From Paraflavitalea pollutisoli (GTDB lineage: Bacteria > Bacteroidota > Bacteroidia > Chitinophagales > Chitinophagaceae), in the NCBI RefSeq assembly GCF_029360705.1, contig NZ_JARKMX010000008.1, positions 2,348,202 to 2,412,201 of the forward strand: a DNA stretch of 64,000 bases. Reading direction: 5' to 3'. The position numbers and the translations under genes were made by a program. The notes below the pieces were generated by a model. That model saw only the letters and a program-made list of their open reading frames with translations. It did no database searches and was not told where the DNA came from. Positions 12,501 to 38,609 of this stretch are shown here, piece after piece; positions within the stretch are counted from its first letter, which is position 1, and each line of letters begins with the position of its first letter.

Positions 12501-12534
12501 ATGCACTGTTTATCGGTTGACAGGCTACCTTCCA

Positions 12535-15500: not shown

Positions 15501-15909
15501 CCCCGTTTTCCGTTTCAACAAAACGGGTCCTTAAGATTTCGTGTCTTTCCAGGAGCTGGCGAAAAGCCACTTTCAAACGGCCTTCATCCAACCTTCCTTC
15601 CACCACGTTCGACAGCGACATATGATAGGCCGCACCGCTCCCCAAACGATGCAAAACCCAGATCCTTTGCTGCGCAGCGGAAAGCGGATAATGGTCGGCA
15701 GCAGGGGCAGGCGGTATGGCCGCCTCCTCGCCCAACGGCTGCGTCAGCAACGACAGAATGGTCGTTTTATGTGTACGCAGCAATCCTACTTCGGCTTCTG
15801 ACAACAGGTGGATATTGCCCTGCATTTTCAATTGCCTGCCAGAATCATCGGATGTAAAATGAATCCCATGTTTCCTGCAAACGCTCAGTACATCCAGCAA
15901 TGCTTTCAT
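12535..15909 (-). CDS. Non-ribosomal peptide synthetase, single module (C-A-PCP; Asp predicted)
   Basis: A monomodular NRPS of 1,124 residues: TubC-like docking domain (about 1-55), C domain (about 72-500, HHIIGDG at 206-212), A domain (about 530-1035, YVIYTSGSTGRPKG) and carrier domain (QLGGHSLKM). The A4 region is unusual (AADLGNT), but the pocket reads D-L-T-K-I-G-H-I-G-K, matching the established aspartate code. It should add the third residue. There is no E or thioesterase domain, so the chain must pass to the next protein through the terminal docking regions. One base separates its start from the stop of the upstream NRPS gene, typical of a single polycistronic message. Family assignment is certain; Asp comes from by-eye alignment with the GrsA pocket positions. 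Confidence 0.95.
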   Translation of the reverse strand: MKALLDVLSVCRKHGIHFTSDDSGRQLKMQGNIHLLSEAEVGLLRTHKTTILSLLTQPLGEEAAIPPAPAADHYPLSAAQQRIWVLHRLGSGAAYHMSLSNVVEGRLDEGRLKVAFRQLLERHEILRTRFVETENGEVRQFIAPVDEAGFDWSFADLRGDGDVWTSASKLFRSATAAGFDLELGPLWRVNLLQVDNERWLFQLTIHHIIGDGWSMEILVRDLMQYYVSGTEAGLLLPLALQYKDFAWWQQEQLRSGAYLPHRRYWMEQLSGELPILSLQEDRPRPAVRSYNGAAVPVTIPPELTVACKALVRQQECTLFMAMLALVQALLYRYTAQEELVIGTPASGREQAAFQHQVGLYLNTVVLRSRCEGATDFLTLLAAAKQTVLDAQVHQAYPFDLLLDELQPERDLSRSPLFDVMVSVQDDDLIQRHGQELPGPLRVTAYEAEKQYSSKFDWTFHFVDKGDEITGTLIYNSDTWLPDTAARMGRHLVQLLASVVDHPTAPVSRLPYLDPSERRRLLEGVNVSAAVEPPAVTLNDLFATQVKQTPDTLALVFGDERYTYQELDEQSDRLAGLLQLQGIGPDCLVAILLDRSADAIIAILSVLKAGGAYVPVDPEYPADRIEYILHDCQAGVLITSVCYLDGLADYTGHKIAIDQFDRNITSAPYLPASIRPDHLAYVIYTSGSTGRPKGVMVEHGALVDYSFGIREVTNITDCQHFGLVSTIAADLGNTILYTALFTGGTLHVFSAAELMDATAFFRQPLDCIKIVPSHWKSLQLPDNIYLPSKCLIFGGEVLTADVLDLIRSAGAACQVYNHYGPTEATIGKLINRLDPGQLSAPVPLGRPFCRSACYLLDAYGQPVPEGVLGEICLSGVGLARGYYNQPELTAEKFIPHPLLPGERLYRTGDQGRWVAGGLVTFHGRKDDQVKIRGYRVEPGEIAAVLRSCPGVEAAIVLPVPQAGGDQALAAYVAGAGVAPPVLRAWLAKSLPAYMIPAHFILLDKLPLTLNGKVDRSALPPVEAAGWSSNTTVPPRNELEAQLLQLWHELLGNRVMGVLDNFFQLGGHSLKMMQLIARIHRHYSVRIHIQQFYKEPTIENIALQISFVQDQHKQKANRKHLRQVEI

Positions 15910-15910
15910 G

Positions 15911-18900
15911 CTAAAATATTATCTCGTCTCCGGTTCCGGCCGGTACTTCGTGCCGGGTTTCCATCCAGCGGATCGTTTCTATGTAATCGGAAAGATGCTC
16001 TATCGTAGGATCGATAAAGAGTGCTTTGAGGTCGATCCGCACCCCCATGGTCTCATGGATACGTGCCACCACCCGCGTGGCCTTCAGGCTATGCCCGCCG
16101 AGATCGAAGAAGTTATCCCGGATACCGATGTTCCTTCTGTCCAGTACGGACTCCCAGATAGCCACAATAGCCCTATCGGTCTCATTGCGCGCAGGCAGTT
16201 GCGGCAGCTCATCCGACCCTATATCGGACGGCCGGGGCAAGGCTTCTTTGTCGAGTTTGCCATTGCTGTTGATCGGAAATTGATCGAGTTCGATCAGGTA
16301 AGAGGGCACCATATAAGCGGGCAGCAGGTCCGTCAACGATTTTCGCAACTGGCTGGTTCCTTCAAACGCTTCAGTAGCAATGAACCAGGAAGCAAGCTCA
16401 TAGTCACCACTGTCGCTTTTCAACGGCAATACGACGGCATCTCCGATACCGGGCTGGCCAAGCAGCGCGTGTTCCACTTCAGCCGTTTCGATGCGGTGGC
16501 CACGGATCTTCACCTGGTCGTCGCGCCGGCCGATGTATTCAATATCCCCGTTGGATAAGATGCGCGCAAAATCGCCGGAGCGGTACATGCGCGCGCCTTG
16601 CTGAAAGGGATGTGCTATAAATTTCGTAGCGGAGAGCTCGGGTTTGTTCAGGTAACCGCGTCCTACGCCCGCTCCCCCCACACACAACTCACCGATGACG
16701 CCAACAGGTACCTGCATCAAATCACCATCGAGTACAAAACAACTTACGGTAGGCATAGGGATACCGATATTGCTGCGGTTCTCTGTGATCTCCAAATGGG
16801 TAATTTCTTTATACGTAACATGCACGGTCGTTTCCGTAATGCCATACATATTGACGATGCGACAGGCCGGTACCGCCTGGTGCCAGCGTAGCAGCATAGC
16901 AGGCAGCAGCGCTTCGCCGCCGAAAATGAGGTATCGCACGGCCACGTTGCGATTCAGTTCGCCACCATTGACCTGCAGCATGCTGCGGAAAGCAGTCGGC
17001 GTTTGGTTCAGCACCGTGATCTGTTCCTGCACCAGAAAATCAAAGAAGGCGCGCCCATCCCGGGCAATGTCCGCGGGCACCATGACCAGCGTAGCGCCAT
17101 ACAACAAAGCGCCGTACATCTCCCATACGGAGAAATCGAAACAGTAGGAATGGAACATCGACCAGCGATCGTTGGCCGTGAAGGCAAAGCGATTGCCTTC
17201 ATGATGGAGCAACCTGGCCACCTGGCGGTGTTCTATCAACACGCCTTTGGGATTGCCGGTTGTGCCAGAGGTATAGATCACATAGGCCAGTTGTTCTGGT
17301 GACACCTTACGCGCTTCTCCTTCTCCCGTGTCATCCAATCGGGTAATATCCAACAGGATTCTGTCGCCGGCCACCTGGGCAACTTGACCACGCTTGTCGC
17401 TATCGCACAAAATGATCGCCGGATCGGCATCCTGCACAATGTAGGAGATCCTTGCCAGCGGGTATTCCGGATCGACCGGTACATAAGCACCACCAGCTTT
17501 CAGGACCCCAAGAATAGCGATCAGCATCCACTCGTTGCGGTCGAAATGCAATACTACCAGATCTTCCGGCTGCAACGCATACTCCCGGATCAGTACGCCG
17601 GCAAGCTGACTGCTGGCCCTGTCCAGGGCACGGTATGACCACCGTTGGTCACCCACCACCAAAGCAATATGGTCGGGATAGCTGGCCACAGCCTGCGCAA
17701 ACAGACTGACAATGCTGGCGGTGGGATCAAATGCAAAGGCAGTCTGGTCCGCCTTCGCCGTCAGCAGGGCAAATTCATCCCTGCCCGGCAGCACAATATC
17801 CCGGATACGTAGTTCCGGTGAAGCGATCAATTGCTCCAGCAACCGGTTCAAATGCCCGGCCATTCGGTCGATCGTACTGGCCTCAAAAAGGTCGGCATTG
17901 TATTCGAGCATGAGCAGTAGTCCGTCTGCCTGTTGGGCATAAGAAAACTGCAGGTCGTATTTGGCAACACCTGTCGGCAGGGCAATCGGTTCCAGGTAAA
18001 GACCCGGCTCCAGCATATGCTGCGTCCCATTACCCGGGTCATCGGGATTCATCAGGATCACCAGCACATCAAACAAGGGCGAACGCGAAAGATCCCTTTT
18101 GATGGCCAGTTCTTCTACCATCGTTTCGAATGCATAGGCCTGGTGCTTCCAGGCAGCGAGCAGCATTTCCTGCTCCCGGCGCACCGCATCGGTAAAACGA
18201 TCGGCACTGTTTACCTCCAGCCTCACCGGCAAGGTATTGACATAAAAACCGATCTGATCATGCAGTTGCGGATGCTCTCTCCCGGCCACCGGCGTACCAA
18301 TCACGATATCGTGCTGGCCGCTGTATTTTTTCAACAGCACCCGGGTGGCAGCCAGGAGGACCGTGAACAGGCTCGCGTCGCACTGGCGTGCCAGCTGCTG
18401 CAAACCGCTTTCAATAGCAGGAGCAAAGAGGTGTGTACGGCGTTCACCGCGGTATGTTTTAATGGTTGGACGGTTGTGATCAGTGGGCAACTCCAGCGCA
18501 GGTGCAGGCGACTCGAAGAGGCGCATCCAAAACTGCCGGTGTTGCTCCATAACTGAAGACAATGCGCGCGAGCGCTGCCAAACCGAATAATCTTTGTATT
18601 GTATACTTAGCTGGCCGGATAGTAGTCCGGCATCTACAGACGAATGGTAAGCAGCCACCAGGTCCTGCAAGAGGATGCCCAGCGACCAGCCATCGCCGAC
18701 GAGGTGGTGCATATTGAAAGACAGGAAGTGATTATCACGTCCCTGCACAATCGCACAGCGCAGCAAAGGGCCGGTACCGAGATCGAAAAGCGTGGTCCAT
18801 TGTCCGGCGATCCATTGCAATACCTGTTCGTCGTCATACGCAGGAAACGGCATTTCCGTTACCACGAATCCTATCTCTTCAGCCGGCAACACTTGCTGTA

Positions 18901-21900
18901 CCGGCACCCCCTCCTTTTCAACAAACACGGTCCGCAAGGACTCGTGGCGCCTGATTACCCCTTGAAAAGCCCGCTGCAGCCGCTGCACATCCAGGACACC
19001 TTTGATCCTATAGACTGCCGGCATATGATAGGCCACGGAAGCATCCGCAAACTTCGTCAACACCCACAACCGCTCCTGGGCCATCGAAATGGGATAATAC
19101 GTTTGCTCTACGGCCTTCCCGATCGGCTCAACGCTGGTGATCGGTTTGGATTCCAGTAGCAATACCTGTTGCCCGATGGTGGGGCAGGCAAAAAGTTCGT
19201 TGAGACTTACTTCCCTGCCCAATTCCTTCATGAGCAGAAACCTCAGTTTCGTGGCCTTGAGGCTATGGCCACCCATATCGAAGAAATTATCCGTTGCACC
19301 AGGGCTAACAGGCCCCAGCACTTTTTTCCACAATCCTATCAGTTGGTAATGCAGGGAGGTGAGTGGTTCTGCCCGCGATGGTTCCAATAAATTATCAGCA
19401 ACCGGCTCCGGCAATCTTTTCCTATCCACTTTCCCATTGCTATTGAGCGGCATCACGGGCAACAATACCCACCAGGCAGGTATCATCGGTGCAGGCAGCA
19501 GGCCGGTAAGATAGGCTTTCAGCCGGGAGGCTTCCAGTGACGCATCTCCCTGAACATACGCAACCAGTTCCTGTTCATCCTGCACAGTGCGGGCCACCAC
19601 CACGGCCTGCTGAACCAGCGGATGTAGTTCCAGCTTCGCTTGTATTTCGCCGGGCTCGATGCGGTAACCCCTGATCTTGATCTGGTCATCGACCCGCCCT
19701 AAAAACTCCACCATCCCATCGGGGGTCCATCGACCACTATCTCCGGTAGCATACATCACCCTACCAGGTTCAAAAGGATCGGCCACAAACTTCTCGGCGG
19801 TTAAAGCCGGCCGGTTCAGGTAACCCTTCGCTACTCCCTGGCCACTTAGCCATATTTCGCCGGGTACACCGATCGGTTGCAGTTGCCGGTTGGCATTCAG
19901 AATATACAATCTGGTATTATCGATCGGCACACCGATCGGAACGAAATCATACCGGTCGGCTGCGAAACGATAAACGGTGCTGTAGGTAGTATCTTCCGAA
20001 GGTCCGTATAAGTTCCTGCAGGCGAGGTGCGCCAACTGCGGGGCCTGCCTGAACCAGCAAGGCACCGGCTCGCCGGCCACATTCAGTGCAGTAACAGCCT
20101 GCCAGTCCATGTCTGTTTGCAGCAGGTGCCGCACTACGGAGGGCACGGTATTCAGCATAACCGCCTGGTCGAGCGGCAGCATATCGGGTATAGACATGGC
20201 AGTAGGCAGTAAGCGGATCGCCTTTCCCTGCATCAACGGAAACAAACATTCGAATACCGACAGGTCGAAACAGAACGATGTAGTAGCGTATAAAACATCA
20301 AAGCGCGTATCGGCATATTCACGGGCAGCCCATTTCAACAGCGCTATAGTATTGCGGTGACGGATCTCCACGCCTTTGGGCTGGCCGGTAGATCCCGAGG
20401 TATAAATAACATAGGCGGTATGCTCACGCAGATCGGGCCAGGAAGCAGACAGCCCTGCCCCATCACCTGCCAGTTCGTGCAGATGAATAACACGACCCGC
20501 ATAAGCGGGTGGCACGCAGCCAAGGCCGGCGTCATCAGCGATGATATAGGGCAACTGCGCATCTTCTATGATGTATTGAATGCGGGCTGCCGGATAATCC
20601 GGCTCGATGGGCACATACGCCGCTCCCGCTTTTAATATCGCCAGAACACTCACCACCAACGATGCCTTACGCTCGAGCATCAATCCGATGAGGCAATGGC
20701 CCGACGGGCTGGTAATTTCCCGTAGCCGTGCAGCTGCCGCATCAACAGCCTGTTGCAGTTGTGCGTAAGTGAGGGTTGTTTCGCCGGCGTACAATGCCGG
20801 CTGATGGGGAAAATGACGAAAGGCCGGCTCCAGCAATTGCAGGATATGATGCTCTCCGATGTGTTGCACCGGAGCATTAAAGACCGACAAGATCTGCTGC
20901 TGCGCTACCGGTGTCGTCAGCACGACCTGTGCGAGGGGCGTTTCCGGGTTGTCGATCACCTGACCGACCACGTGCATAAACAATTCGAAAAGTTGAACAA
21001 TGCGCTGCTTCGTAAACAACGCAGTATCGTATTCGATCTCTACATAGAACCGGTTGTCGGGTTCATAGTCGAGGTTAAAGGTCAGGTCGAATTTTGCCGC
21101 CATCGGAACAGCTTCCGCCGCCCCCTCGGGGTACAGGTATTGTTGCAGCAAGCTTAGTTGAAAGCCATACTGCTGGTGTTTATTGACACTCCCCTCTCCG
21201 ATCGCGGCATCCTGTACAGCCAACATCACATCGAACAGGGGATTCCTGCTCAGGTCTCTTTTGAGTTGCAGGTCTTCGACGAGCTGATCGAACGGATATT
21301 CCTGGAACTCGAACACCTTGAACGCGTGTTCTGACAATTGTTTCAGCCATGCCAGGAAAGACAACGCTTCCTTCACCGTAGACCGGAATGGAAGCGTATT
21401 CACATAAAGCCCTATCTGTCCTTCCAGGTCAAGATGATTTCTGCCGGAGGCGGGACTGCCGATCGTGATATCTGTTACCCCGGTGAGTTTACTGAGCAGC
21501 AGGGACAGTGCAGCTCGAAAGAAGTTGAAGGCCGTTGCATGATGCGCTTTGCAAAAACCGGTAACCCGGCCATGCAGGTCCTTACCCGGATAAAACCGGA
21601 TGACGGCTCCTTCGAAGGTGCGGATGGGTGGCCGGGGCTTATCTGCCGGCAGTTCAAGTGCCGGTGGCAGTTCGGCAAACTGGCTTTCCCAGAATTGCCG
21701 CGCCTGTAGGCCTTTGTCGCCCTGCACACGCAATTGATGCCATTGGCAATAATCCTTGTACTGTATACTCAGCGTTTCGGCTACCGGTTTATCGCCTTTG
21801 CACAACATTTCATAAGCACGCATCACTTCGGGCACCAATACAGCAATGGACCATCCATCGCTGATGATATGATGTATACCGAAGACCATCGCCAATGACG

Positions 21901-22480
21901 TATCGGCCAGTCGGTACAGCTTAACCCGGAGGAGTGGTCCGCTCGTAAGATCGAAATGCCAGTAAGCAGCTGCATCGGCGGCAGCCTGCAACGTAGCATG
22001 CTGGCCCGTATCGTTGCTGATATCTGTATAGGCAATAGTAAAGGACAGGTCCGGAAGGATCACTTGCCGCAACTCACCTTCGCGCTCGCGAAAGACAGTG
22101 CGCAGGCTTTCATGCTTTTGAACCGCCAGCTGAAAAGCCTGCTCCAGGCAGGTGATATCGACGGCTCCCTGCAGGTAAAAGCTGCGAACAATATTGTAAG
22201 CGGCGCTGCCCCCCTGCAGTTGACTGAGTACCCAGATCCTTTGCTGTGCATTGGAAGCCGGATAATCAGCTTGTAGCGGTATGGCAGGTATGGGAGCAAA
22301 AGCCCGCTGATCCAGGGCTTCGCGCAGGAAGTTGCGCAAGGCCTCTTTGTTGTGTCGCACTTCCTGCAGCAACGAAGCCGGCAGGCTTGCCGTTTCGCCT
22401 ACCAGGCGTAGTTGATCACCCACTAAACGGGGTATCACCCTGTACGTCTTTAAGGCAGCAATGATTTCCCAGGTATTCAT
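15911..22480 (-). CDS. Non-ribosomal peptide synthetase, two modules (C-A-PCP-C-A-PCP; Ala, Thr predicted)
   Basis: A dimodular NRPS of 2,189 residues directly downstream of the acyl-loading protein. Order: TubC docking domain (1-52), C domain (about 72-500, HHIISDG at 203-209), A domain with pocket D-L-F-N-N-A-L-T-Y-K (an alanine code), carrier domain (DMGGHSLKA), C domain (HHLVGDG near 1290), A domain with pocket D-F-W-N-I-G-M-V-H-K (the classical threonine code) and carrier domain (DLGGHSLKA). Its first C domain should act as a lipo-initiating condensation domain joining the activated fatty acid to Ala. Thr at position 2 offers a hydroxyl for later macrolactone closure, an inference only. 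Its ATG overlaps the FAAL stop codon (ATGA). Confidence 0.95.
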   Translation of the reverse strand: MNTWEIIAALKTYRVIPRLVGDQLRLVGETASLPASLLQEVRHNKEALRNFLREALDQRAFAPIPAIPLQADYPASNAQQRIWVLSQLQGGSAAYNIVRSFYLQGAVDITCLEQAFQLAVQKHESLRTVFREREGELRQVILPDLSFTIAYTDISNDTGQHATLQAAADAAAYWHFDLTSGPLLRVKLYRLADTSLAMVFGIHHIISDGWSIAVLVPEVMRAYEMLCKGDKPVAETLSIQYKDYCQWHQLRVQGDKGLQARQFWESQFAELPPALELPADKPRPPIRTFEGAVIRFYPGKDLHGRVTGFCKAHHATAFNFFRAALSLLLSKLTGVTDITIGSPASGRNHLDLEGQIGLYVNTLPFRSTVKEALSFLAWLKQLSEHAFKVFEFQEYPFDQLVEDLQLKRDLSRNPLFDVMLAVQDAAIGEGSVNKHQQYGFQLSLLQQYLYPEGAAEAVPMAAKFDLTFNLDYEPDNRFYVEIEYDTALFTKQRIVQLFELFMHVVGQVIDNPETPLAQVVLTTPVAQQQILSVFNAPVQHIGEHHILQLLEPAFRHFPHQPALYAGETTLTYAQLQQAVDAAAARLREITSPSGHCLIGLMLERKASLVVSVLAILKAGAAYVPIEPDYPAARIQYIIEDAQLPYIIADDAGLGCVPPAYAGRVIHLHELAGDGAGLSASWPDLREHTAYVIYTSGSTGQPKGVEIRHRNTIALLKWAAREYADTRFDVLYATTSFCFDLSVFECLFPLMQGKAIRLLPTAMSIPDMLPLDQAVMLNTVPSVVRHLLQTDMDWQAVTALNVAGEPVPCWFRQAPQLAHLACRNLYGPSEDTTYSTVYRFAADRYDFVPIGVPIDNTRLYILNANRQLQPIGVPGEIWLSGQGVAKGYLNRPALTAEKFVADPFEPGRVMYATGDSGRWTPDGMVEFLGRVDDQIKIRGYRIEPGEIQAKLELHPLVQQAVVVARTVQDEQELVAYVQGDASLEASRLKAYLTGLLPAPMIPAWWVLLPVMPLNSNGKVDRKRLPEPVADNLLEPSRAEPLTSLHYQLIGLWKKVLGPVSPGATDNFFDMGGHSLKATKLRFLLMKELGREVSLNELFACPTIGQQVLLLESKPITSVEPIGKAVEQTYYPISMAQERLWVLTKFADASVAYHMPAVYRIKGVLDVQRLQRAFQGVIRRHESLRTVFVEKEGVPVQQVLPAEEIGFVVTEMPFPAYDDEQVLQWIAGQWTTLFDLGTGPLLRCAIVQGRDNHFLSFNMHHLVGDGWSLGILLQDLVAAYHSSVDAGLLSGQLSIQYKDYSVWQRSRALSSVMEQHRQFWMRLFESPAPALELPTDHNRPTIKTYRGERRTHLFAPAIESGLQQLARQCDASLFTVLLAATRVLLKKYSGQHDIVIGTPVAGREHPQLHDQIGFYVNTLPVRLEVNSADRFTDAVRREQEMLLAAWKHQAYAFETMVEELAIKRDLSRSPLFDVLVILMNPDDPGNGTQHMLEPGLYLEPIALPTGVAKYDLQFSYAQQADGLLLMLEYNADLFEASTIDRMAGHLNRLLEQLIASPELRIRDIVLPGRDEFALLTAKADQTAFAFDPTASIVSLFAQAVASYPDHIALVVGDQRWSYRALDRASSQLAGVLIREYALQPEDLVVLHFDRNEWMLIAILGVLKAGGAYVPVDPEYPLARISYIVQDADPAIILCDSDKRGQVAQVAGDRILLDITRLDDTGEGEARKVSPEQLAYVIYTSGTTGNPKGVLIEHRQVARLLHHEGNRFAFTANDRWSMFHSYCFDFSVWEMYGALLYGATLVMVPADIARDGRAFFDFLVQEQITVLNQTPTAFRSMLQVNGGELNRNVAVRYLIFGGEALLPAMLLRWHQAVPACRIVNMYGITETTVHVTYKEITHLEITENRSNIGIPMPTVSCFVLDGDLMQVPVGVIGELCVGGAGVGRGYLNKPELSATKFIAHPFQQGARMYRSGDFARILSNGDIEYIGRRDDQVKIRGHRIETAEVEHALLGQPGIGDAVVLPLKSDSGDYELASWFIATEAFEGTSQLRKSLTDLLPAYMVPSYLIELDQFPINSNGKLDKEALPRPSDIGSDELPQLPARNETDRAIVAIWESVLDRRNIGIRDNFFDLGGHSLKATRVVARIHETMGVRIDLKALFIDPTIEHLSDYIETIRWMETRHEVPAGTGDEIIF

Positions 22481-24504
22481 ATGGTGATCTGTTCTCCGGA
22501 AGTTTGCTCATTCTTCAGCCATAGCATCGACTCGATCATGTTGACGAGACTACTGAAGCTGTTATGCTGTAGTACTTTGGCAATATCTATATTGATACCA
22601 AGTTCCTTATTGATGAGGTTGACGATTTCGGTGGCGCGCAGGGAATCGATCCCGATGGACGTCAGCTCGGTGGTATCTACCACACCATTTACCCCCTGCC
22701 ATCCCACCCGGGCACCGATTACTTCAAGCAGGTAATGACGGATACTTTGGTCATTGACCTGCTGTAACAATTGGCCGGCAGCAAAGCCAGGCCGGTGTTG
22801 AGTATCCGCCAGGGCCGATCGGGCAGCCAATACATTGAAACCACCTTGTAAATACTCCTCCCGGCATTTCACCCGCTGCAATTTTCCGCTCGTGGTACGC
22901 GGGATGCCCAGCGGTGTCGTCAATACAATGTCTGCCGGCGACAATCCAAACATACCTGTCACGGCCATATCGATGGCAGCCATCACGGTGACTGGGTCGA
23001 TCTCCCTGATGCGGCTTCTCCTGATCTCGGCAACAATCACCCATTGGTCACGGGCAGCATTGATGCAAAAAACAGCCACCCCGTTGTGCTCGATCGCTTC
23101 GTGGCAGCCTTCTACCAACTGCTCAATATCGTATGGGTATACATTTCTGCCGCGGATGATGAGCATTTCGGTGAGGCGTCCATTGACGAAAAGCTGGTCA
23201 TTGTACAGAAACCCCAGGTCACCGGTACGCAGGTAGCGCTGGTTGTCAAATTCATAAAAAAAAAGGTCATTGTCCTTGTTCCAGTAACCTTCCGTAACAC
23301 TGGGACCACCGATGCAGATCTCTCCTTCTTCCAGAACGGCGCAGCGACGCGCAGTCTCAGGCGCCACGATCCTGACCTCCATACCCGGCAGTATACTGCC
23401 GGAACTCACAACCGGCCGGGCATTGTTATCACTGGCATCCGATAGCAGGATGCGGCCCAAAGGACCGCGTGCTTCCTGCACGTAAAGTACGGGCGGCGGT
23501 TGCCCCTGCCGGTGACCGGTTACCAGTAAAGTAGCTTCAGCCAATCCATAACAGGGTTTGAAGGCTGCTGCATCAAAACCAGCCGGACCAACATGCGCCG
23601 CAAAACGCAACAGGGTATCGTGCCGTATGGGCTCCGATCCATTGTAGGCCACTTTCCAACTGGATAGGTCCAATAGCGCCAGGTCGGCTGCTGGTATCTT
23701 GTCTACACAAAGGTCATAGGCAAAATTGGGTCCTCCGCTGTGGGTGACCTCGTACCGGGAAATGGCCTGTAACCAGCGGCGCGGATGTTGTATGAATTGT
23801 ATCGGCGCCAGGAGTATGCAGGTGCATCCGCAATAGATAGTATGTAAAATATTACCGATCAATCCCATGTCATGGTGAAACGGCAGCCAGGAAAGGATCA
23901 CCGATTGGCTATCGCATCCGAATGTATCCCGGATGAGTGCCTGATTGTGCAACAGGTTGCTGGCCGTAATCACGACCCCCTTGGGCTTTCCGGTCGACCC
24001 GGAAGTATATTGAATGAATGCCGTGTTATGGTACCGTGGCTTTTTATTGACGGGCACATCGATCGTCTGGTAAGCAACATCCGTAGCGATGATGGGTATT
24101 GCACACCGTTTAAAATAATCCGACAAACCAACCCGCAGCTGATCGATGGAAAAATGCGCGCACAACACCGCCGCTACATCGGCATCCTCCATGATGTGTT
24201 GCAGCCGCGCCATTTGTCTGGAGCCCCGGGCAAAAGGTACAGGCACCGCAATGATGCCCATGTATTGACAGGCCAGGAAGGACAGCAGAAACTCGAGCGT
24301 ATCGTGGTACACCAGTAATACCCGCTTGCCATACAACTCCTGCTCACTCAATTGAGCAGCCAGCGTACGCACCCACCCATCGACATCCTGGTACGACACC
24401 CTGCGCTCAACCGCCTCCCCATCCTCAAGTATAATGAAAGCAGTAGCAGCTGGCCGTTGCTCGGCGTGCCCCATGAGCCGGTCAATGATCGTCGGTATAC
24501 CCAT
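22477..24504 (-). CDS. Fatty acyl-AMP ligase fused to acyl carrier domain (lipopeptide loading)
   Basis: A 675-residue FAAL with a C-terminal carrier domain. FAALs activate free fatty acids as acyl-adenylates and load them on a carrier phosphopantetheine instead of coenzyme A. Visible features are the adenylate-former motif YTSGSTGKPKG, the FAAL-type SGGPNFAYDLC and YNGSEPIR motifs, and GLAEATLLVTG. The carrier domain covers about residues 590-665, with GIDSL and the attachment Ser at 621. It sits first in the NRPS operon, so it supplies the acyl tail to the Ala module. I chose ATG 24504, 38 bp after the NusG-like gene; a longer reading would overlap that gene by more than 100 bp and adds no recognizable domain. 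Chain length cannot be read from the sequence. Confidence 0.93.
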   Translation of the reverse strand: MGIPTIIDRLMGHAEQRPAATAFIILEDGEAVERRVSYQDVDGWVRTLAAQLSEQELYGKRVLLVYHDTLEFLLSFLACQYMGIIAVPVPFARGSRQMARLQHIMEDADVAAVLCAHFSIDQLRVGLSDYFKRCAIPIIATDVAYQTIDVPVNKKPRYHNTAFIQYTSGSTGKPKGVVITASNLLHNQALIRDTFGCDSQSVILSWLPFHHDMGLIGNILHTIYCGCTCILLAPIQFIQHPRRWLQAISRYEVTHSGGPNFAYDLCVDKIPAADLALLDLSSWKVAYNGSEPIRHDTLLRFAAHVGPAGFDAAAFKPCYGLAEATLLVTGHRQGQPPPVLYVQEARGPLGRILLSDASDNNARPVVSSGSILPGMEVRIVAPETARRCAVLEEGEICIGGPSVTEGYWNKDNDLFFYEFDNQRYLRTGDLGFLYNDQLFVNGRLTEMLIIRGRNVYPYDIEQLVEGCHEAIEHNGVAVFCINAARDQWVIVAEIRRSRIREIDPVTVMAAIDMAVTGMFGLSPADIVLTTPLGIPRTTSGKLQRVKCREEYLQGGFNVLAARSALADTQHRPGFAAGQLLQQVNDQSIRHYLLEVIGARVGWQGVNGVVDTTELTSIGIDSLRATEIVNLINKELGINIDIAKVLQHNSFSSLVNMIESMLWLKNEQTSGEQITI

Positions 24505-24542
24505 CTTTATAATTAAAGCCCTTTGGTTGAAGTAATGCTGCC

Positions 24543-25049
24543 TTACATAGCAACAAGGTATTCCTGCGGCAAGGACAGCAGGAGGTTGCGCTGCAGCAGA
24601 TCGACACGCACGAGCAACTTGCTCTTGCCATGGTATTGTACGACCTCGCAATACAGCCCGGTCAGTGATCCCTGACCAATCAGGAGCCGGCGCCCGGGCA
24701 GGAAGCGCTCATCCGACACTTCGATGTCCTGCGCCTGCGCTGCAGCCAGTTTCAAATTGGCGATCACCGTATCGCTTACGCGGGCGATCTCTTTGCCTGT
24801 CTTGATATAGTACAAAGAACCTTCGGCATCGAGACCCGCATAATAGCCCTGCATATCAGTCAGGTAAATGAAGACATAAGAGGGAAACAGCGGCTCATCG
24901 ATGATTCTTTTACGATCATGCCAGTTGCGTAATTTCTTCTGCGTGGGTAGAAAACTATCGATCTTCCTGCTCGTCAAATGAGCATGTACTTTCTTCTCAT
25001 GCCTTGGCATGGTATAGATCAGGTACCAGCCAGATTGAAATCCTTTCAT
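24543..25049 (-). CDS. NusG-like specialized antiterminator (UpxY/LoaP type)
   Basis: A 168-residue NusG paralogue. The N-terminal NGN domain is recognizable (GWYLIYTMPRHEKKV, later LFPSYVFIYL), and the C-terminal 55 residues form a KOW-like segment (FLPGRRLLIGQGSLTGLYC). Specialized NusG proteins of this size commonly head long polysaccharide or secondary-metabolite operons in Bacteroidota and Firmicutes and let RNA polymerase read through early terminators. It is the first gene of an operon of more than 24 kb, which fits that role. The target RNA element is presumably in the leader at 25050-25240. Function in this operon is inferred from position. Confidence 0.88.
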   Translation of the reverse strand: MKGFQSGWYLIYTMPRHEKKVHAHLTSRKIDSFLPTQKKLRNWHDRKRIIDEPLFPSYVFIYLTDMQGYYAGLDAEGSLYYIKTGKEIARVSDTVIANLKLAAAQAQDIEVSDERFLPGRRLLIGQGSLTGLYCEVVQYHGKSKLLVRVDLLQRNLLLSLPQEYLVAM

Positions 25050-34932: not shown

Positions 34933-35129
34933 ATGTAAATATTTCTGATGAAACAATTATCAGCAGGTCATAGTACGTGTGCCTCGACGTGGCTAAACCA
35001 GGTATTCCCCGGCGGTAAACGCTGTGCGCATACACCTGCCGGTATGAATTTCATCATTGTTCGGGAAAGTATAGCCAAACGACCGTGTGTGCCACCTGGC
35101 GCTGTGTAAAAGCAGCAGCAGGAGCAGCA
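34933..35129 (+). ncRNA. Candidate small RNA between two terminators
   Basis: About 200 bp bounded by two rho-independent terminators in the same direction, which implies a second transcript starting here or read-through from 34758. No ORF looks convincing. Complementary patches such as CCAGGT (near 35008) with ACCTGG (near 35094) could fold the segment. No promoter meeting the -33/-7 rule was found. Leftward frames here translate partly into PARFERASS-like peptides, a known artefact of reading tRNA sequence backwards. Confidence 0.35.
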
Positions 35130-35160
35130 GCCCGGTCGGACAACGACCGGGCTTTTTTTT
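35130..35160 (+). terminator. Intrinsic terminator
   Basis: A perfect 9-bp stem GCCCGGTCG/CGACCGGGC with loop GACAA is followed by eight T residues. It is the second strong terminator within 260 bp and lies immediately before the tRNA 3'-half. Genes downstream must have their own promoter or depend on read-through. Confidence 0.88.
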
Positions 35161-35214: not shown

Positions 35215-35287
35215 CGGCTTGTAGCTCAACTGGAAGAGTCACCGGCTTTTAACCGGAAGGTTGCGCGTTCGATCCGCGCCGGGCCGA
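35215..35287 (+). tRNA. Divergent tRNA-Lys (anticodon UUU)
   Basis: A 73-nt cloverleaf: acceptor CGGCTTG/CGGGCCG (7 bp with two G-U pairs), T8 A9, D-arm GCTC-AACTGGAA-GAGT with one G-U, anticodon arm CCGG-CTTTTAA-CCGG with anticodon TTT at 35248-35250, variable region, and T-arm GCGCG-TTCGATC-CGCGC. Oddities are an A-A mismatch at the base of the anticodon stem, a C at position 26 and the wobble-rich acceptor. It does not look like a housekeeping bacterial tRNA-Lys, so it may be an accessory or non-decoding tRNA. CCA is not encoded. Confidence 0.75.
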
Positions 35288-35406
35288 CAAACAGTAACGC
35301 TTAAAACGAAAAAAATGAAAAGAAGTCAACCCTTCATAATGACAGGAATGGTAAGCGCTGCCACAGCATGGCACCGCAGTTTCCGAACGGAACAAATAAC
35401 TTCATT
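35288..35406 (+). other. Leader of the basic-protein gene with overlapping frame
   Basis: After the tRNA an A-rich tract (cttaaaacgaaaaaa) precedes ATG 35315, which opens a 67-residue frame (start MKRSQPFIMTG) overlapping the next gene in another frame and ending at 35518. A compact dyad TTCCGAACGGAA lies just before the main gene. The overlapping frame could be a coupled leader peptide or chance; codon choice gives no clear answer. Confidence 0.3.
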
Positions 35407-36144
35407 ATGGAGCGAAAACTTATCGAACAGTATGGGGAGGATATCCTCTCCTACCGATTGCGTACCGCGCGACAAAAGAAACGCGCGCAGTACGAGGATT
35501 TTGACAAGCGGCTATTAAAACTGGACAGGGAACGAAATGCACTTAACAAAACGAAAAGAAACCTGGGTTGGGAGCCATTGAACCCTCCCTACCAAAAAGG
35601 ATGGAAACGTTGCTTTGTATTAAGAGAGGATGTGGCCAAAAGCAAGCACGCTGCGTTTTATGAGGGTATCCTGAAAAAGATCAACACCTATGCCTACAGC
35701 AGCCTCAGATCATTCGCTGTAAGCAAGCGAAAAAAACGCAAAGGGCGCAAGCTAGTTAAAAAGGAGCAAGGGTTGCTGGAACCGGCAGACTGGCATATGG
35801 CGAAACTGAAATTCACTCCATTGGAGATGCAGCAGTTTCATGAAACGTATAAGTATGACGCTTACAAGTGCCTGGTACGTCATTGGGTATTTAATGAACC
35901 ATGGAGATTCGTATTAAAAGTATCTCCCAATATGATCACTGAGGTTAAAAGGCGCGATGCAGTCATTGAAGCGAGACTAGCTGAACTGGACGATTACCTG
36001 CAGCAGGTAAAAAACAGTACCCGTTTGGTAACCTTGAAATATGGCCACCACTGGTGGCATCGCGGTTCCTCGAAACGGCAACACAAAGACATATTCAACA
36101 ACAAATCATTAAGTCAGATACTGGACATGATCAAGGAAACCTAA
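35407..36144 (+). CDS. Highly basic protein of unknown function
   Basis: A 245-residue protein (13 more if ATG 35368 is used) with no signal peptide or membrane segment. It is very rich in Lys and Arg, with clusters TARQKKRAQ near the start and SKRKKRKGRKLVKKEQG near residue 110, a WEPLNPPYQKGWKRCFVLRED block near residue 55 and a C-terminal KYGHHWWHRGSSKRQHKD. The charge pattern suggests nucleic-acid binding, probably RNA given the setting; this is inference. I do not recognize the family. It is followed 11 bp later by the YkuK-like gene, so they form an operon. ATG 35407 is preferred because an A/T-rich leader precedes it. Confidence 0.75.
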   Translation: MERKLIEQYGEDILSYRLRTARQKKRAQYEDFDKRLLKLDRERNALNKTKRNLGWEPLNPPYQKGWKRCFVLREDVAKSKHAAFYEGILKKINTYAYSSLRSFAVSKRKKRKGRKLVKKEQGLLEPADWHMAKLKFTPLEMQQFHETYKYDAYKCLVRHWVFNEPWRFVLKVSPNMITEVKRRDAVIEARLAELDDYLQQVKNSTRLVTLKYGHHWWHRGSSKRQHKDIFNNKSLSQILDMIKET

Positions 36145-36155
36145 AACACAACAAC

Positions 36156-36632
36156 ATGGAACAGCAATGGCAGCGGTTGGATGGTTCTGCCATCCGCCGC
36201 CCGATCGAAGAAGAGGTAAGATCGGTATTGGCAAGAGAAAAAGCAACCGGACATGACCTGAAAGTATGCATTGGTACGGATAGCCAGGTAAGAGCGGGCA
36301 CCATCGCATTCGCTACGGTGATCGTCTTCCTCCGCAAAGGACGCGGTGGCTTCATGTACGTACTGAGCGACACCTCCCGTCAACGCATGAGTTTGAAAGA
36401 ACGGATGCTGACCGAAGTGAGCAAAAGTATCGAAGTAGCCTACCCCCTGTGCGGCCTGTTTACCGCCTACGATGTAGACCTGGAAGTACATGCCGATATC
36501 AACACCAACCCCCAGTTCGACAGTAACCATGCCTTGAAAGATGCGATGGGCTATATCATGGGGATGGGATTTGCCTTCAAAGCCAAGCCCTATGCTTTTG
36601 CGAGTTCCTGTTGCGCCGATAAGGCCGTGTAG
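36156..36632 (+). CDS. YkuK/DUF458 RNase H-fold protein
   Basis: A 158-residue protein of the YkuK (DUF458) family, predicted to have a ribonuclease H-like fold. Typical motifs are VCIGTDSQ near residue 40 with the first acidic residue, LKERMLTEVSKSIEVA, LEVHADINTNPQFDSN with a second acidic pair, and the C-terminal GMGFAFKAKPYAFASS. Biochemical roles of the family are poorly known; an RNA-directed nuclease or non-catalytic RNA binder is plausible. The start follows the A-rich leader AAAACACAACAAC. It lies between a basic unknown protein and tRNA-like units, with a slipin downstream. Confidence 0.85.
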   Translation: MEQQWQRLDGSAIRRPIEEEVRSVLAREKATGHDLKVCIGTDSQVRAGTIAFATVIVFLRKGRGGFMYVLSDTSRQRMSLKERMLTEVSKSIEVAYPLCGLFTAYDVDLEVHADINTNPQFDSNHALKDAMGYIMGMGFAFKAKPYAFASSCCADKAV

Positions 36633-36670: not shown

Positions 36671-36907
36671 GTGACGGTCGATGTATCTGTAACACAGATC
36701 ACATTCAGCAGTCCTGACCGATACCAGGAACGAAATCGGCACCGCCTGGTCGATGCACTTTTGAGAGAAGTACATTCAGCAGTCCGGCACGGGCGCCGGC
36801 CTTCGTTCAACACGCATAAAAAGCTTGCTTCACGGCAAGAAGGGCTCTGGACCTGTAGTCAGGAAACCAGGCTGATGTTTACACGCATCGCAGTGCAGCC
36901 GTCGTAA
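36671..36907 (+). CDS. Possible small ORF (GTG start), doubtful
   Basis: A 78-residue frame starts at GTG after an A-rich tract (aacaacaaacaattccgcaaa) and is rich in Arg and Gln. It contains a 14-bp direct repeat ACATTCAGCAGTCC (36701-36714 and 36772-36785). It ends about 40 bp before the permuted tRNA-like units. It may be a small RNA-binding protein, or non-coding leader that happens to be open. Confidence 0.3.
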   Translation: MTVDVSVTQITFSSPDRYQERNRHRLVDALLREVHSAVRHGRRPSFNTHKKLASRQEGLWTCSQETRLMFTRIAVQPS

Positions 36908-36950
36908 CGTGCTGTATGCTGTTCCGGCGCAGCGCAGGGCCCTCCAAAGA

Positions 36951-37017
36951 TTCGTGGGTCGGGGGTTCGACTCCCCTTAGGGATAAATCCCTATAGCTCA
37001 GCTGGCAGAGCAACGAA
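36951..37017 (+). ncRNA. Circularly permuted tRNA-like unit A
   Basis: The elements of one tRNA occur in the order 3' half then 5' half. First come anticodon-stem strand TTCGT (36951-36955), variable GGGTC, T-arm GGGGG-TTCGACT-CCCCT (36961-36977) and acceptor strand TAGGGAT (36978-36984). After two A residues follow acceptor strand ATCCCTA (36987-36993), T8 A9, D-arm GCTC-AGCTGGCA-GAGC (36996-37011) and anticodon-stem strand ACGAA (37013-37017). Acceptor strands pair 7/7, anticodon strands 5/5, D-stem 4/4 and T-stem 5/5 with one G-T. As transcribed, the acceptor end is closed by a tiny loop and has no free CCA, while the anticodon loop is open. Confidence 0.75.
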
Positions 37018-37025
37018 CCGTTAGT

Positions 37026-37096
37026 ATGGGTTCGAATCCCATTCTTTCCCCAGCGGAAGGATAGCTCAATGGTAGAGCACTACACTGAGGATGTAG
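37026..37096 (+). ncRNA. Circularly permuted tRNA-like unit B (GAG anticodon loop)
   Basis: A second permuted unit directly follows unit A: T-arm ATGGG-TTCGAAT-CCCAT (37026-37042), acceptor 3' strand TCTTTCC (37043-37049), linker CCAGC, acceptor 5' strand GGAAGGA (37055-37061), T8 A9, D-arm GCTC-AATGGTA-GAGC (37064-37078), A26, and a complete anticodon arm CTACA-CTGAGGA-TGTAG (37080-37096) with GAG at positions 34-36. The acceptor strands pair 7/7 with one G-U. Here the split is after the anticodon arm, unlike unit A. The acceptor sequence differs from unit A, so the two are not simple duplicates. Confidence 0.72.
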
Positions 37097-37450
37097 CAGA
37101 CAAAAAAGTACACCGCTTTTCAAATGGTGATCTTTCTAAAGCCCGTACGATGTACCGGCAACCTGTATATCAGTCATCGCAAGACGACAACCATACAGGC
37201 GGCAACCCGATGATTGCCTGCAGGTCAGGCAAACACCCGTCACGGGAAACGCGATGCCACCGGGCCAACAGGCCATCGTTCAGCCGCAAGGCCATGAATT
37301 GCCAGCGGCAATTTATCGGAACCAGCCCGAACGCCCGGCAGCAAACCGTTTCCACCAGCGGGCAGGCAACTGTGCTTCCGCGATCACCAGGTGGTACCTG
37401 GTACAGGCTTTATGTTTTAACAACCAAGACAAACCCATAAAACAAACAAC
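37097..37450 (+). ncRNA. Hairpin-rich leader upstream of slipin
   Basis: About 350 bp rich in short perfect dyads: CCTGTAT/ATACAGG (near 37162-37199), AATTGCC-AGC-GGCAATT (37297-37313) and CCAGGT-GGT-ACCTGG (near 37388-37402). This points to a structured RNA, either the 5' UTR of the slipin gene or the tail of the tRNA-like transcript. A 66-residue frame (37254-37454) ends with TGA overlapping the slipin ATG as ATGA, so a coupled small ORF is also possible; its composition is not convincing. An A-rich tract precedes the slipin start. Confidence 0.4.
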
Positions 37451-38551
37451 ATGAAACAAGTTAGGATCGATACCTGGCAGATAGGCCTGGTATTCAAGCG
37501 TGGTGTTTACCAGCGCATGCTAACCACCGGGAACTACTGGTTCTGGGACAACCCGGTCGTGAACTGCTATGACATCACCAAGCCGTTTATCGCACCGGTT
37601 GAACTGAACATCTTACTCGAAGACAAAGACCTGGCGCAAGCCCTGCACGTCGTGGAAGTGGGCGACCATGAACTGGTGATCCACTACGAAAACGGTTTAC
37701 TGAAACAAGTACTGACAGCTGGCCGGTACACCTTCTGGAGAAGCGTGGTACAACACAATTTCGTGCGCCTCGACACCAGCAAGACTGAGATCACCGAAGG
37801 ATTGAGCCGGGCCACCCTGCAACACAAACTGGTGGCACCGTATGTACGTGGATATTCGGTCGAGAACCATGAAAAAGCTGCCCTGTTCATCGATAGCCAG
37901 TTCGTGCGCATCCTGGCACCAGGGCTGTACAACTGGTATCGCAACAACATCTCCATTCAGGTTGCCAAGGTGGATATCCGCCAGCAGCAACTGGAGATCA
38001 ATGGCCAGGAGATCCTGAGCCGTGACAAGGCGGCCTTGCGCCTCAATGCCTGGGCGCAGTACCGGGTAACCGATATCGAAAGGGCCTTGCTCTTGAACAA
38101 AGAATACGACAAGCAGTTGTACATCGCGTTTCAATTGGCGCTGCGGGAATATGTCAGCAACCTGTCGTTTGATGAATTGCTCGAGAAGAAGGAAAGCATC
38201 GCTCCCTTCGTATTGAAAGCCGTCAACGAGAAGGCCGGCGCCCTGGGTATACAGGTCAATGATTTCGGTATCCGCGACATCATCCTGCCGGGCGATGTGA
38301 AGGAGATCATGAACCAGGTATTGATCGCCGAAAAAAAGGCACAGGCCAATACCATCATGCGCCGGGAAGAAACGGCCAGTACCCGTAGCTTGCTGAACAC
38401 TGCCAAACTGATGGAAGACAACGCTATGTTGTGGAAGCTGAAGGAAATGGAATACGTAGAAAAGATCGCCGACAAGATCACCAACATCAGCGTCAACGGC
38501 AGCGGCGTGCTGGTAGAACAACTGAAACAGATCTTCGTACCACAAAAATAA
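37451..38551 (+). CDS. Slipin / SPFH (band 7) protein without membrane anchor
   Basis: A 366-residue band-7 family protein. Residues about 165-300 carry the SPFH core (VDIRQQQLEINGQEILSRD, RVTDIERALL, GIQVNDFGIRDIILPG), followed by a helical segment typical of the flotillin-like tail. Unlike common slipins there is no N-terminal hydrophobic hairpin. Instead three copies of a short beta motif occur at about residues 11-32, 74-96 and 142-163, each of the form hydrophobic-x-x-G-x-x-hydrophobic-L-x-x-G-x-Y-x-x-W. Slipins are known from bacterial RNA-repair neighbourhoods with RtcB-type ligases; no ligase is in this window. It is the last gene of the locus and is followed by a terminator. Confidence 0.88.
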   Translation: MKQVRIDTWQIGLVFKRGVYQRMLTTGNYWFWDNPVVNCYDITKPFIAPVELNILLEDKDLAQALHVVEVGDHELVIHYENGLLKQVLTAGRYTFWRSVVQHNFVRLDTSKTEITEGLSRATLQHKLVAPYVRGYSVENHEKAALFIDSQFVRILAPGLYNWYRNNISIQVAKVDIRQQQLEINGQEILSRDKAALRLNAWAQYRVTDIERALLLNKEYDKQLYIAFQLALREYVSNLSFDELLEKKESIAPFVLKAVNEKAGALGIQVNDFGIRDIILPGDVKEIMNQVLIAEKKAQANTIMRREETASTRSLLNTAKLMEDNAMLWKLKEMEYVEKIADKITNISVNGSGVLVEQLKQIFVPQK

Positions 38552-38580
38552 CGGATGATTAACATCCGGCAGAAAGATCA

Positions 38581-38609
38581 GGACCGTCTCGGGGGAGGCG
38601 GTCCTTTTT
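38581..38609 (+). terminator. Intrinsic terminator after slipin
   Basis: A 10-bp stem GGACCGTCTC/GAGGCGGTCC (one G-T pair) with a GGGG loop is followed by five T residues. It marks the end of the slipin transcript. Confidence 0.88.

Follow-up and report, generated by a model that had tools for sequence, protein, structure and literature searches.

Tandem permuted tRNA-like units in a conserved RNA upstream of slipin genes in Bacteroidota

We analysed a window of 64,000 nucleotides from the 8.76 Mb genome of Paraflavitalea pollutisoli (contig NZ_JARKMX010000008.1). The window carries a gene group in reduced form, which consists of tRNA-Lys, a protein gene (unk258), a DUF458/RNaseH_like gene, the RNA described here, a gene for the membrane protein slipin and a terminator-like site. 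As shown in Table 1, the RNA lies on the plus strand between the DUF458/RNaseH_like gene and slipin. Family searches placed unk258 in no family, and its AlphaFold model (pTM 0.41) was too weak for a fold search. Homologues of unk258 occur in some of the tRNA-array and DUF458 loci. The scan for terminator-like sites found 7 in the region versus 5.2 expected from shuffles, and none in the window on the plus strand in the interval from the RNA to slipin. The Bacteroidota promoter pattern matched the window twice, which is no more than chance predicts, and both matches are distant from the locus. There is no RtcB gene near the RNA in the window genome, which counts against a link to RNA repair. 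The host genome has three RtcB-family loci, and one of them (L254, G000:C10), situated elsewhere, holds RtcB behind tRNA genes and an AAA ATPase gene, the combination also seen in L128 and L129.

Table 1. Features of the gene group and of the RNA, in window coordinates.
Feature	Position	Strand	Basis or remark
Terminator-like hairpin, 10 pairs + 7 T	35129..35153	+	Before tRNA-Lys; likely end of the preceding unit
tRNA-Lys(UUU) gene, head of the gene group	35215..35288	+	ARAGORN, Rfam
unk258, protein without known family	35368..36144	+	Homologues in a minority of loci (6 including the window)
DUF458/RNaseH_like (PF04308) gene	36150..36632	+	E 5.1e-34; in many, not all loci
5' hairpin CTTGC-TTCACG-GCAAG	36824..36839	+	Stem altered yet paired in several relatives (by eye only)
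Stem X, CAG-TG-CAGC ... GCTG-TATG-CTG with inner hairpin	36891..36921	+	Motif count versus shuffles
Unit A, YrlA-type permuted tRNA-like module	36951..37017	+	Sequence read directly, RF02553 match, covariation
Unit A anticodon-stem strands, TTCGT and ACGAA	36951-36955, 37013-37017	+	5/5 paired
Unit A T-arm	36961-36977	+	After the variable loop
Unit A acceptor strands, TAGGGAT, AA, ATCCCTA	36978-36984, 36987-36993	+	7/7 paired
Unit A D-arm	36996-37011	+	Direct reading
Unit B, complete tRNA-like fold permuted at the variable loop	37026..37096	+	Direct reading, covariation, loop profile, reordering test
Unit B T-arm	37026-37042	+	Direct reading
Unit B acceptor strands, TCTTTCC, CCAGC, GGAAGGA	37043-37049, 37055-37061	+	7/7 paired
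Unit B D-arm	37064-37078	+	Direct reading
Unit B anticodon-like arm, CTACA-CTGAGGA-TGTAG, 7-nt loop	37080-37096	+	Directly 3' of the D-arm
H-type pseudoknot AAAAG/CTTTT + CACCG/TGGTG, A-rich third loop	37104..37129	+	Score versus shuffles
Slipin (SPFH/Band_7) gene, constant downstream neighbour of the RNA	37451..38551	+	PF01145, E 6.6e-24
Terminator-like hairpin, strong, 3' of slipin	38580..38605	+	Terminator-like site scan

The segment 36951-37097 consists of two permuted tRNA-like units. Unit A runs in the order anticodon-stem strand, variable loop, T-arm, capped acceptor, D-arm and anticodon-stem strand. A preliminary description of this DNA had reported a reversed tRNA order, 7/7 pairing in both acceptor stems and 5/5 pairing of the anticodon strands of unit A. 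All of these were present on direct reading, and the observation turned out to be understated: the anticodon strands of unit A had been seen, but the complete anticodon-like arm of unit B had been omitted.

To describe the RNA beyond the window we used 88 two-unit RNAs, whose sequences were chosen from the loci collected. Sequence counts given here do not stand for numbers of independent events. The loop of the unit B arm has 7 nt in 81 of the 88. Among these 81 loops, Y32 is found in 79, U33 in 74, R37 in 77 and A38 in 68, and positions 34-36 are variable. The anticodon triplet varies even among four members of the window's genus, in which the anticodon stem is identical. The two extra hairpins of Table 1 both lie 5' of unit A, and the motif of stem X occurs in 37/88 RNAs versus 16/1760 shuffled sequences. 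In the 55 nt 3' of unit B, the best pseudoknot score averaged 22.3 versus 9.4 in shuffles, and scores of at least 24 were reached by 37/88 RNAs versus 5/264 shuffled sequences. Across relatives the number of units per RNA ranges from one to three, with several relatives having a single unit.

Standard tools overlook this RNA. The tRNA-Lys gene at 35215 was the only ARAGORN call in the whole window, with none at 36951-37097. Rfam gave a YrlA match below its cutoff, described below, and weak tRNA matches at 36993-37043 (31.5 bits) and 37055-37138 (38.9 bits), in which the units are read in ordinary order. Minimum-free-energy folding of the window stretch was unremarkable (z -1.22) and did not recover the full structure.

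We compared the pairing of the structure with shuffled alignments in sets of 9, 48 and 88 sequences. In A2, an unfitted MAFFT alignment of nine two-unit RNAs on which the structure itself was drawn by hand, 92.4% of 340 cells were paired versus 70.8% after shuffling, and 31/40 pairs had double-sided changes. The two larger alignments, A4 and A6, were fitted to our models, which favours the structure. With this advantage, A4 (48 sequences) had 95.9% of 1863 cells paired, double changes in 36/40 pairs, and 522 double-change cells versus 149 ± 12 in shuffles. A6, the alignment of the 88 RNAs across the phylum fitted to model R2, had standard pairs in 96.0% of 3459 cells versus 67.3% shuffled, with 37/40 pairs changed on both sides and 1034 double-change cells versus 292 ± 17. 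For each of the three sets, none of 500 shuffles matched the real alignment in any of five pairing measures. Compensatory changes, on which the preliminary description had made its observation depend, are thus abundant in both acceptor stems of relatives. The RNA might also be the functionless remains of a decayed tRNA array, as tRNA arrays often adjoin it and unit B retains tRNA features. With compensatory change in 37/40 pairs phylum-wide and a constant placement, we give this reading next to no probability.

The acceptor strands were also compared directly, as 7-mers cut at the boundaries of A6, which is itself model-fitted. Own strands paired on average at 5.93 (A) and 5.98 (B) of 7 positions in the 88 RNAs. 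When the partners were swapped between loci, the averages were 3.49 (A) and 3.47 (B), with maxima of 3.89 and 3.80 in 1000 swaps. Paired in ordinary tRNA order, the strands reached a mean of 3.27/7, no better than swapped partners. We rejected ordinary tandem tRNAs, because the acceptor strands pair across the permutation and not in ordinary order. Imperfect acceptors, with at most 4/7 pairs, occur in 8/88 (A) and 6/88 (B).

The preliminary description knew of no such tandem pair in Bacteroidota. The RNA is no rarity of a single genome and is widespread before slipin genes. A slipin search in 59 related genomes, including the host's own, gave matches in 18, of which 14 are loci of full length. 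Upstream of slipin, each of these 14 has T-loop motifs and, by eye, the permuted form with one or two units. Model R1 was then run on 294 genomes of the family. It gave matches in 293/294, mostly on tandem tRNAs, and by this count the two-unit RNA is found in only 48. At 69 bits or more there were 51 matches, of which 3 lie on ordinary tRNA genes and 48 are the RNA. Slipin is the next gene on the same strand in 48/48. The R1 scores of the two classes overlap, since tandem tRNAs score up to 74.5 bits (G001) and two genuine copies have 73.7 and 69.4.

Model R2 was run on genomes of the order and of the phylum. Matches of at least 94 bits were found in 27/298 genomes of the order and matches of at least 97 bits in 16/395 genomes of the phylum, both lower bounds owing to strict filters and a high threshold. 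We examined 32 order and phylum loci. All 18 loci with at least 97 bits have slipin downstream (one, G058, was already known), whereas the 14 loci that score no more than 88 bits coincide with tandem tRNA genes and none has slipin within about 1.5 kb. The R2 scores of the loci examined thus split between 88 and 97 bits, and genuine single or divergent copies score 46-87. Seven candidates (G001/L108, G095/L110, L119, L079:4964, L097:9484, L038:7311 and L086:5925) were dropped as tRNA arrays because ARAGORN tRNAs overlap them.

Starting from slipin instead, we took the best 80 of 513 loci, from Chitinophagaceae, Cytophagales, Flavobacteriaceae, Bacteroidales and Sphingobacteriaceae. This set overlaps the earlier loci (for example L166 and L026), so the counts are not additive. 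Among these best 80 loci, 65 have an upstream match of at least 74 bits, 12 have weaker matches in which a permuted unit, mostly single, is readable by eye, and 3 (L204, L205 and L210) have no permuted unit. Where the preliminary description had left room for ordinary tandem tRNAs at homologous loci, the permuted form was found in 77 of the best 80 of 513. In L204, L205 and L210 a tRNA-Tyr-like element of ordinary order takes the place of the permuted RNA (by eye). These elements have an odd D-arm and a long variable arm, and ARAGORN calls a tRNA in L210 only. The element lies about 50-140 nt 5' of the slipin at 6001 in L204 and L210, and 5' of the slipin at 227 in L205. Since single-unit relatives and these three ordinary-order elements exist, permutation and tandem arrangement may not be essential. 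A third permuted unit is seen in four Aquimarina loci (L213, L222, L228 and L238) and in L145 and L146. In the sequences read (L228, L238 and L145), unit B resembles a Leu-type tRNA.

A census of neighbours covered 63 of the best 80 of 513 slipin loci, those with about 6 kb on both sides, with queries taken from previously collected loci. Co-directional tRNA genes lie upstream in 50/63 loci, 301 tRNAs in all and up to 18 per locus; 12 other tRNA genes are downstream and co-directional, and 8 are on the opposite strand. RtcB is on the same strand in 42/63 loci, DUF458 occurs in 26/63, a divergent WYL gene in 17/63, RlaP in 7/63 and TROVE in 2/63. At least one of tRNA, RtcB or RlaP is present in 58/63. 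Two results count against the repair link: both RtcB and RlaP are missing from the surrounding 6 kb or so in 20/63 loci, and slipin is followed by an unrelated gene in L026 (LRR), L027 (FecR) and L031 (DapB). In L033 the gene after slipin has no assigned identity. Pfam searches on tested examples found RtcB 3' of slipin in five loci, RlaP in L035, WYL in four loci and TROVE in six of six tested. Of 8 proteins submitted to Padloc, a single regulator gave matches, namely with WYL models and, weakly, with a Cas3 model.

The 301 array tRNAs are uneven, with 1 Ala, 1 Thr, 2 Val and 4 Gly and many Phe, Arg, Lys, Gln, His and Tyr. Counted without a genome-wide tRNA baseline, this bias may mirror the tRNAs that nucleases attack.

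Permuted tRNA genes of red and green algae and of Thermofilum likewise place the 3' half first, and at the acceptor end a short intervening sequence separates the halves (PMC3978253). In the RNA described here, too, the 3' half comes first and the halves pair across a short intervening sequence. Unlike those genes, it is a tandem with a variable anticodon, CCA is rare and unit A has no anticodon loop. It also stands in a bacterial RNA-repair context. The preliminary description had suggested genuine permuted tRNAs. In such a pathway RtcB or another ligase would circularise the units, and RNase P/Z would open the acceptor to yield working tRNAs. Consistent with this, unit B reordered to an ordinary tRNA gave a tRNA call in 78/88, with the variable loop and CCA supplied by us, RtcB is nearby in the 42/63 slipin loci noted above, and the intervening sequences of algal and archaeal permuted tRNAs span 1-74 bp (PMC3978253). 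In its native order, unit B gave a tRNA call in 0/88 when isolated and in 1/88 within full loci (L180). A loop of 0-6 nt closes the acceptor in 78/88, CCA follows the acceptor strand in 4/88, the 1:72 pair is present in 56/88 and the linkers have 0-1 nt in 16/88. The missing anticodon loop of unit A and the anticodon triplet that differs among four congeners with an identical anticodon stem also speak against maturation. Permuted tRNA maturation is therefore unlikely, and the suggestion of genuine permuted tRNAs keeps a very slim chance. The preliminary description had also offered unit A as a mimic of a tRNA nicked in its anticodon. We dropped this candidate, because the bases on either side of the stem do not resemble an anticodon loop.

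The comparison with YrlA made in the preliminary description fits. Rfam YrlA (RF02553) matches 36936-37037 with 43.6 bits (E 2.9e-8), under its gathering score of 69. The score stems from the tRNA-like module, with 42.4 bits at model positions 23-88, and it is unit A that matches this module. In YrlA the module has a T-arm, an acceptor hairpin and a D-arm in permuted order, and the window RNA has the same. The gathering score of 69 bits is reached neither by the window RNA nor by Ro60-linked units of the same family. Permuted units adjacent to TROVE in this bacterial family (L116, L117, L127 and L130) score 33.8-49.2 bits with YrlA, which is the range of the window RNA. The operons of L116 and L117 contain TROVE, units, RlaP, RlaP and RtcB and no slipin, and L127 contains TROVE and a unit. 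Because related permuted units occur in TROVE operons, the RNA looks like a YrlA relative that belongs to the slipin form of the gene group. Salmonella YrlA lies in the rsr-yrlBA-rtcBA operon together with RtcB RNA repair (PMC7790460, PMC8394870). The likeness thus extends to the surroundings, as RtcB is near many slipin RNAs. L130 (G249) carries TROVE with a single unit and, further on, a two-unit RNA before slipin.

Could it be an ordinary Y RNA of a Ro60 particle that stands near slipin by chance? The module match of unit A at 43.6 bits and the four loci that hold both TROVE and slipin (L130, L203, L223 and L241) would agree with this. However, TROVE was not found in the own genome (0/1), and among 58 carrier genomes tested it is present in 5 and missing from 53 (other carriers, such as G030 with L116, are outside this list). 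Unit B begins 3-15 nt after the unit A stem in 86/88 RNAs (median 8; the two exceptions have 26 and 33 nt), which leaves no room for the basal stem that binds Ro60. None fits as a Ro60/Rsr-binding basal stem, several outer RF02553 pairs are broken in the window alignment, and the RF02553 score is owed to the module. We consider an ordinary Y RNA improbable. Since the features tied to Ro60 are lacking, the RNA is partly YrlA-like and is not classed as a Y RNA. It differs from YrlA in having mostly two units, a full anticodon-like arm in unit B and a 3' pseudoknot, in having no basal Ro60 stem and no Ro60 gene in most carriers tested, and in its slipin neighbour. It looks like a YrlA-related but distinct RNA, marked by the tandem, the anticodon-like arm, the pseudoknot and the slipin gene.

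The architecture, the covariation, the phylum-wide spread, the constant place 5' of slipin and the frequent linkage to repair genes are direct observations. Judged by sequence comparison, this is a structured noncoding RNA before Bacteroidota slipin genes, often in a gene group for tRNA damage and RNA repair. RNA and slipin are probably transcribed together, and the RNA probably has a part in how these bacteria survive tRNA damage.

Our preferred reading, to which we assign a probability of about one half, is that a tRNA-damage operon encodes a tRNA-mimic RNA that does not depend on Ro60 and most likely serves tRNA-recognising factors as a bait or platform. The closed acceptors suggest that the RNA cannot be charged as it stands. 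With elbows made of T-arm and D-arm, tRNA-recognising proteins would bind it without its being charged, and the anticodon-like loop of unit B would offer them a generic target. During an attack on tRNAs, replacements would come from the array of the gene group and repair from RtcB and RlaP. As a bait or platform, the RNA would occupy a tRNA nuclease or tether a repair or decay enzyme. Its slot in the slipin group would correspond to the slot of YrlA in Ro60 operons. This reading fits because the gene group holds both reserve tRNAs and repair enzymes. The preliminary description's idea of a decoy fits as well. A point against comes from Salmonella YrlA, for which no fragments are reported to have been detected after nuclease activation and competitive inhibition is raised as a possibility only (PMC7790460).

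A cis-acting leader would account just as well for the strict placement ahead of slipin, which makes this the main and serious rival. Here the tRNA-like units would act as a sensor near the 5' end of the slipin(-RtcB) message, where binding of a tRNA-specific protein or a nuclease cut of the anticodon-like arm would alter how stable the downstream genes' message is or how it is translated. RNA and slipin share a strand, slipin follows at a distance of 138-454 nt (slipin loci of the R1 family-genome set), and the interval in the window has no terminator-like site on the plus strand. In 5/14 WYL loci of that set (L033, L034, L035, L037 and L072) the RNA is within 400 nt of the divergent regulator and so near the likely transcript start. 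The three loci with an ordinary-order tRNA-like element keep it in this place, as if any tRNA shape sufficed. In contrast, other WYL loci and the DUF458 loci have other genes preceding the RNA, and L116 and L117 carry related units between TROVE and RlaP. The spacer to slipin is long and less conserved past the pseudoknot even within the genus; its mean column identity is 61%, pseudoknot included, in four congeners and one duplicate. We regard a leader as possible, though clearly less probable than a bait or platform.

A palindrome, TGYGCAAAAAGAYTGYGCA, lies 5' of the RNA or tRNA-like element in L173, L178, L180, L218, L226, L243 and L210 and is likely an operator. It occurs in 6/22 hand-listed WYL loci, 1/58 others and 1/800 shuffled stretches.

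The bait or platform may be extended, though this is speculative. Across the phylum, the chained permuted mimics, independent of Ro60 and with an anticodon-like loop that changes freely, could serve both to bait and to sense anticodon nucleases while diversifying. The anticodon-like arm of unit B, whether intact or cut, would then report an attack on tRNAs and control or recruit slipin, RtcB, RlaP and the reserve tRNA array.

Parts of this gene group are known elsewhere. In Anabaena a silent tRNA array is induced by translational stress, and removal of TrcR raises the tRNA array, rtcB and the slipin alr0740 (PMC10272220). The TrcR regulon thus shares the tRNA array, rtcB and slipin with the slipin loci. 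It differs in that its genes are not one operon, and 'tRNA-like' is absent from the main text of PMC10272220. The RNA brings together reserve tRNA arrays, repair by RtcB and RNAs that mimic tRNA, three topics commonly treated separately. The cited accounts (PMC7790460, PMC8394870) do not settle what Y RNAs that mimic tRNA do in RNA-repair operons of bacteria. A Ro60-free relative with a full anticodon-like arm, one to three units and a tie to slipin is a natural test of the purpose of this mimicry. Our literature searches found no description of the RNA; they covered the likeliest sources incompletely, so that its absence from print is unproven.

tmRNA, including its permuted forms, combines tRNA mimicry with pseudoknots, and the RNA resembles it in both respects. 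The tmRNA model RF00023 had no match in the window at its gathering score, and relatives reached about 16-18 bits with T-arm fragments only.

Elsewhere in the window, the minus strand at 5841-24651 carries four long open reading frames of 2221, 1124, 2189 and 724 aa, perhaps a large biosynthetic cluster.
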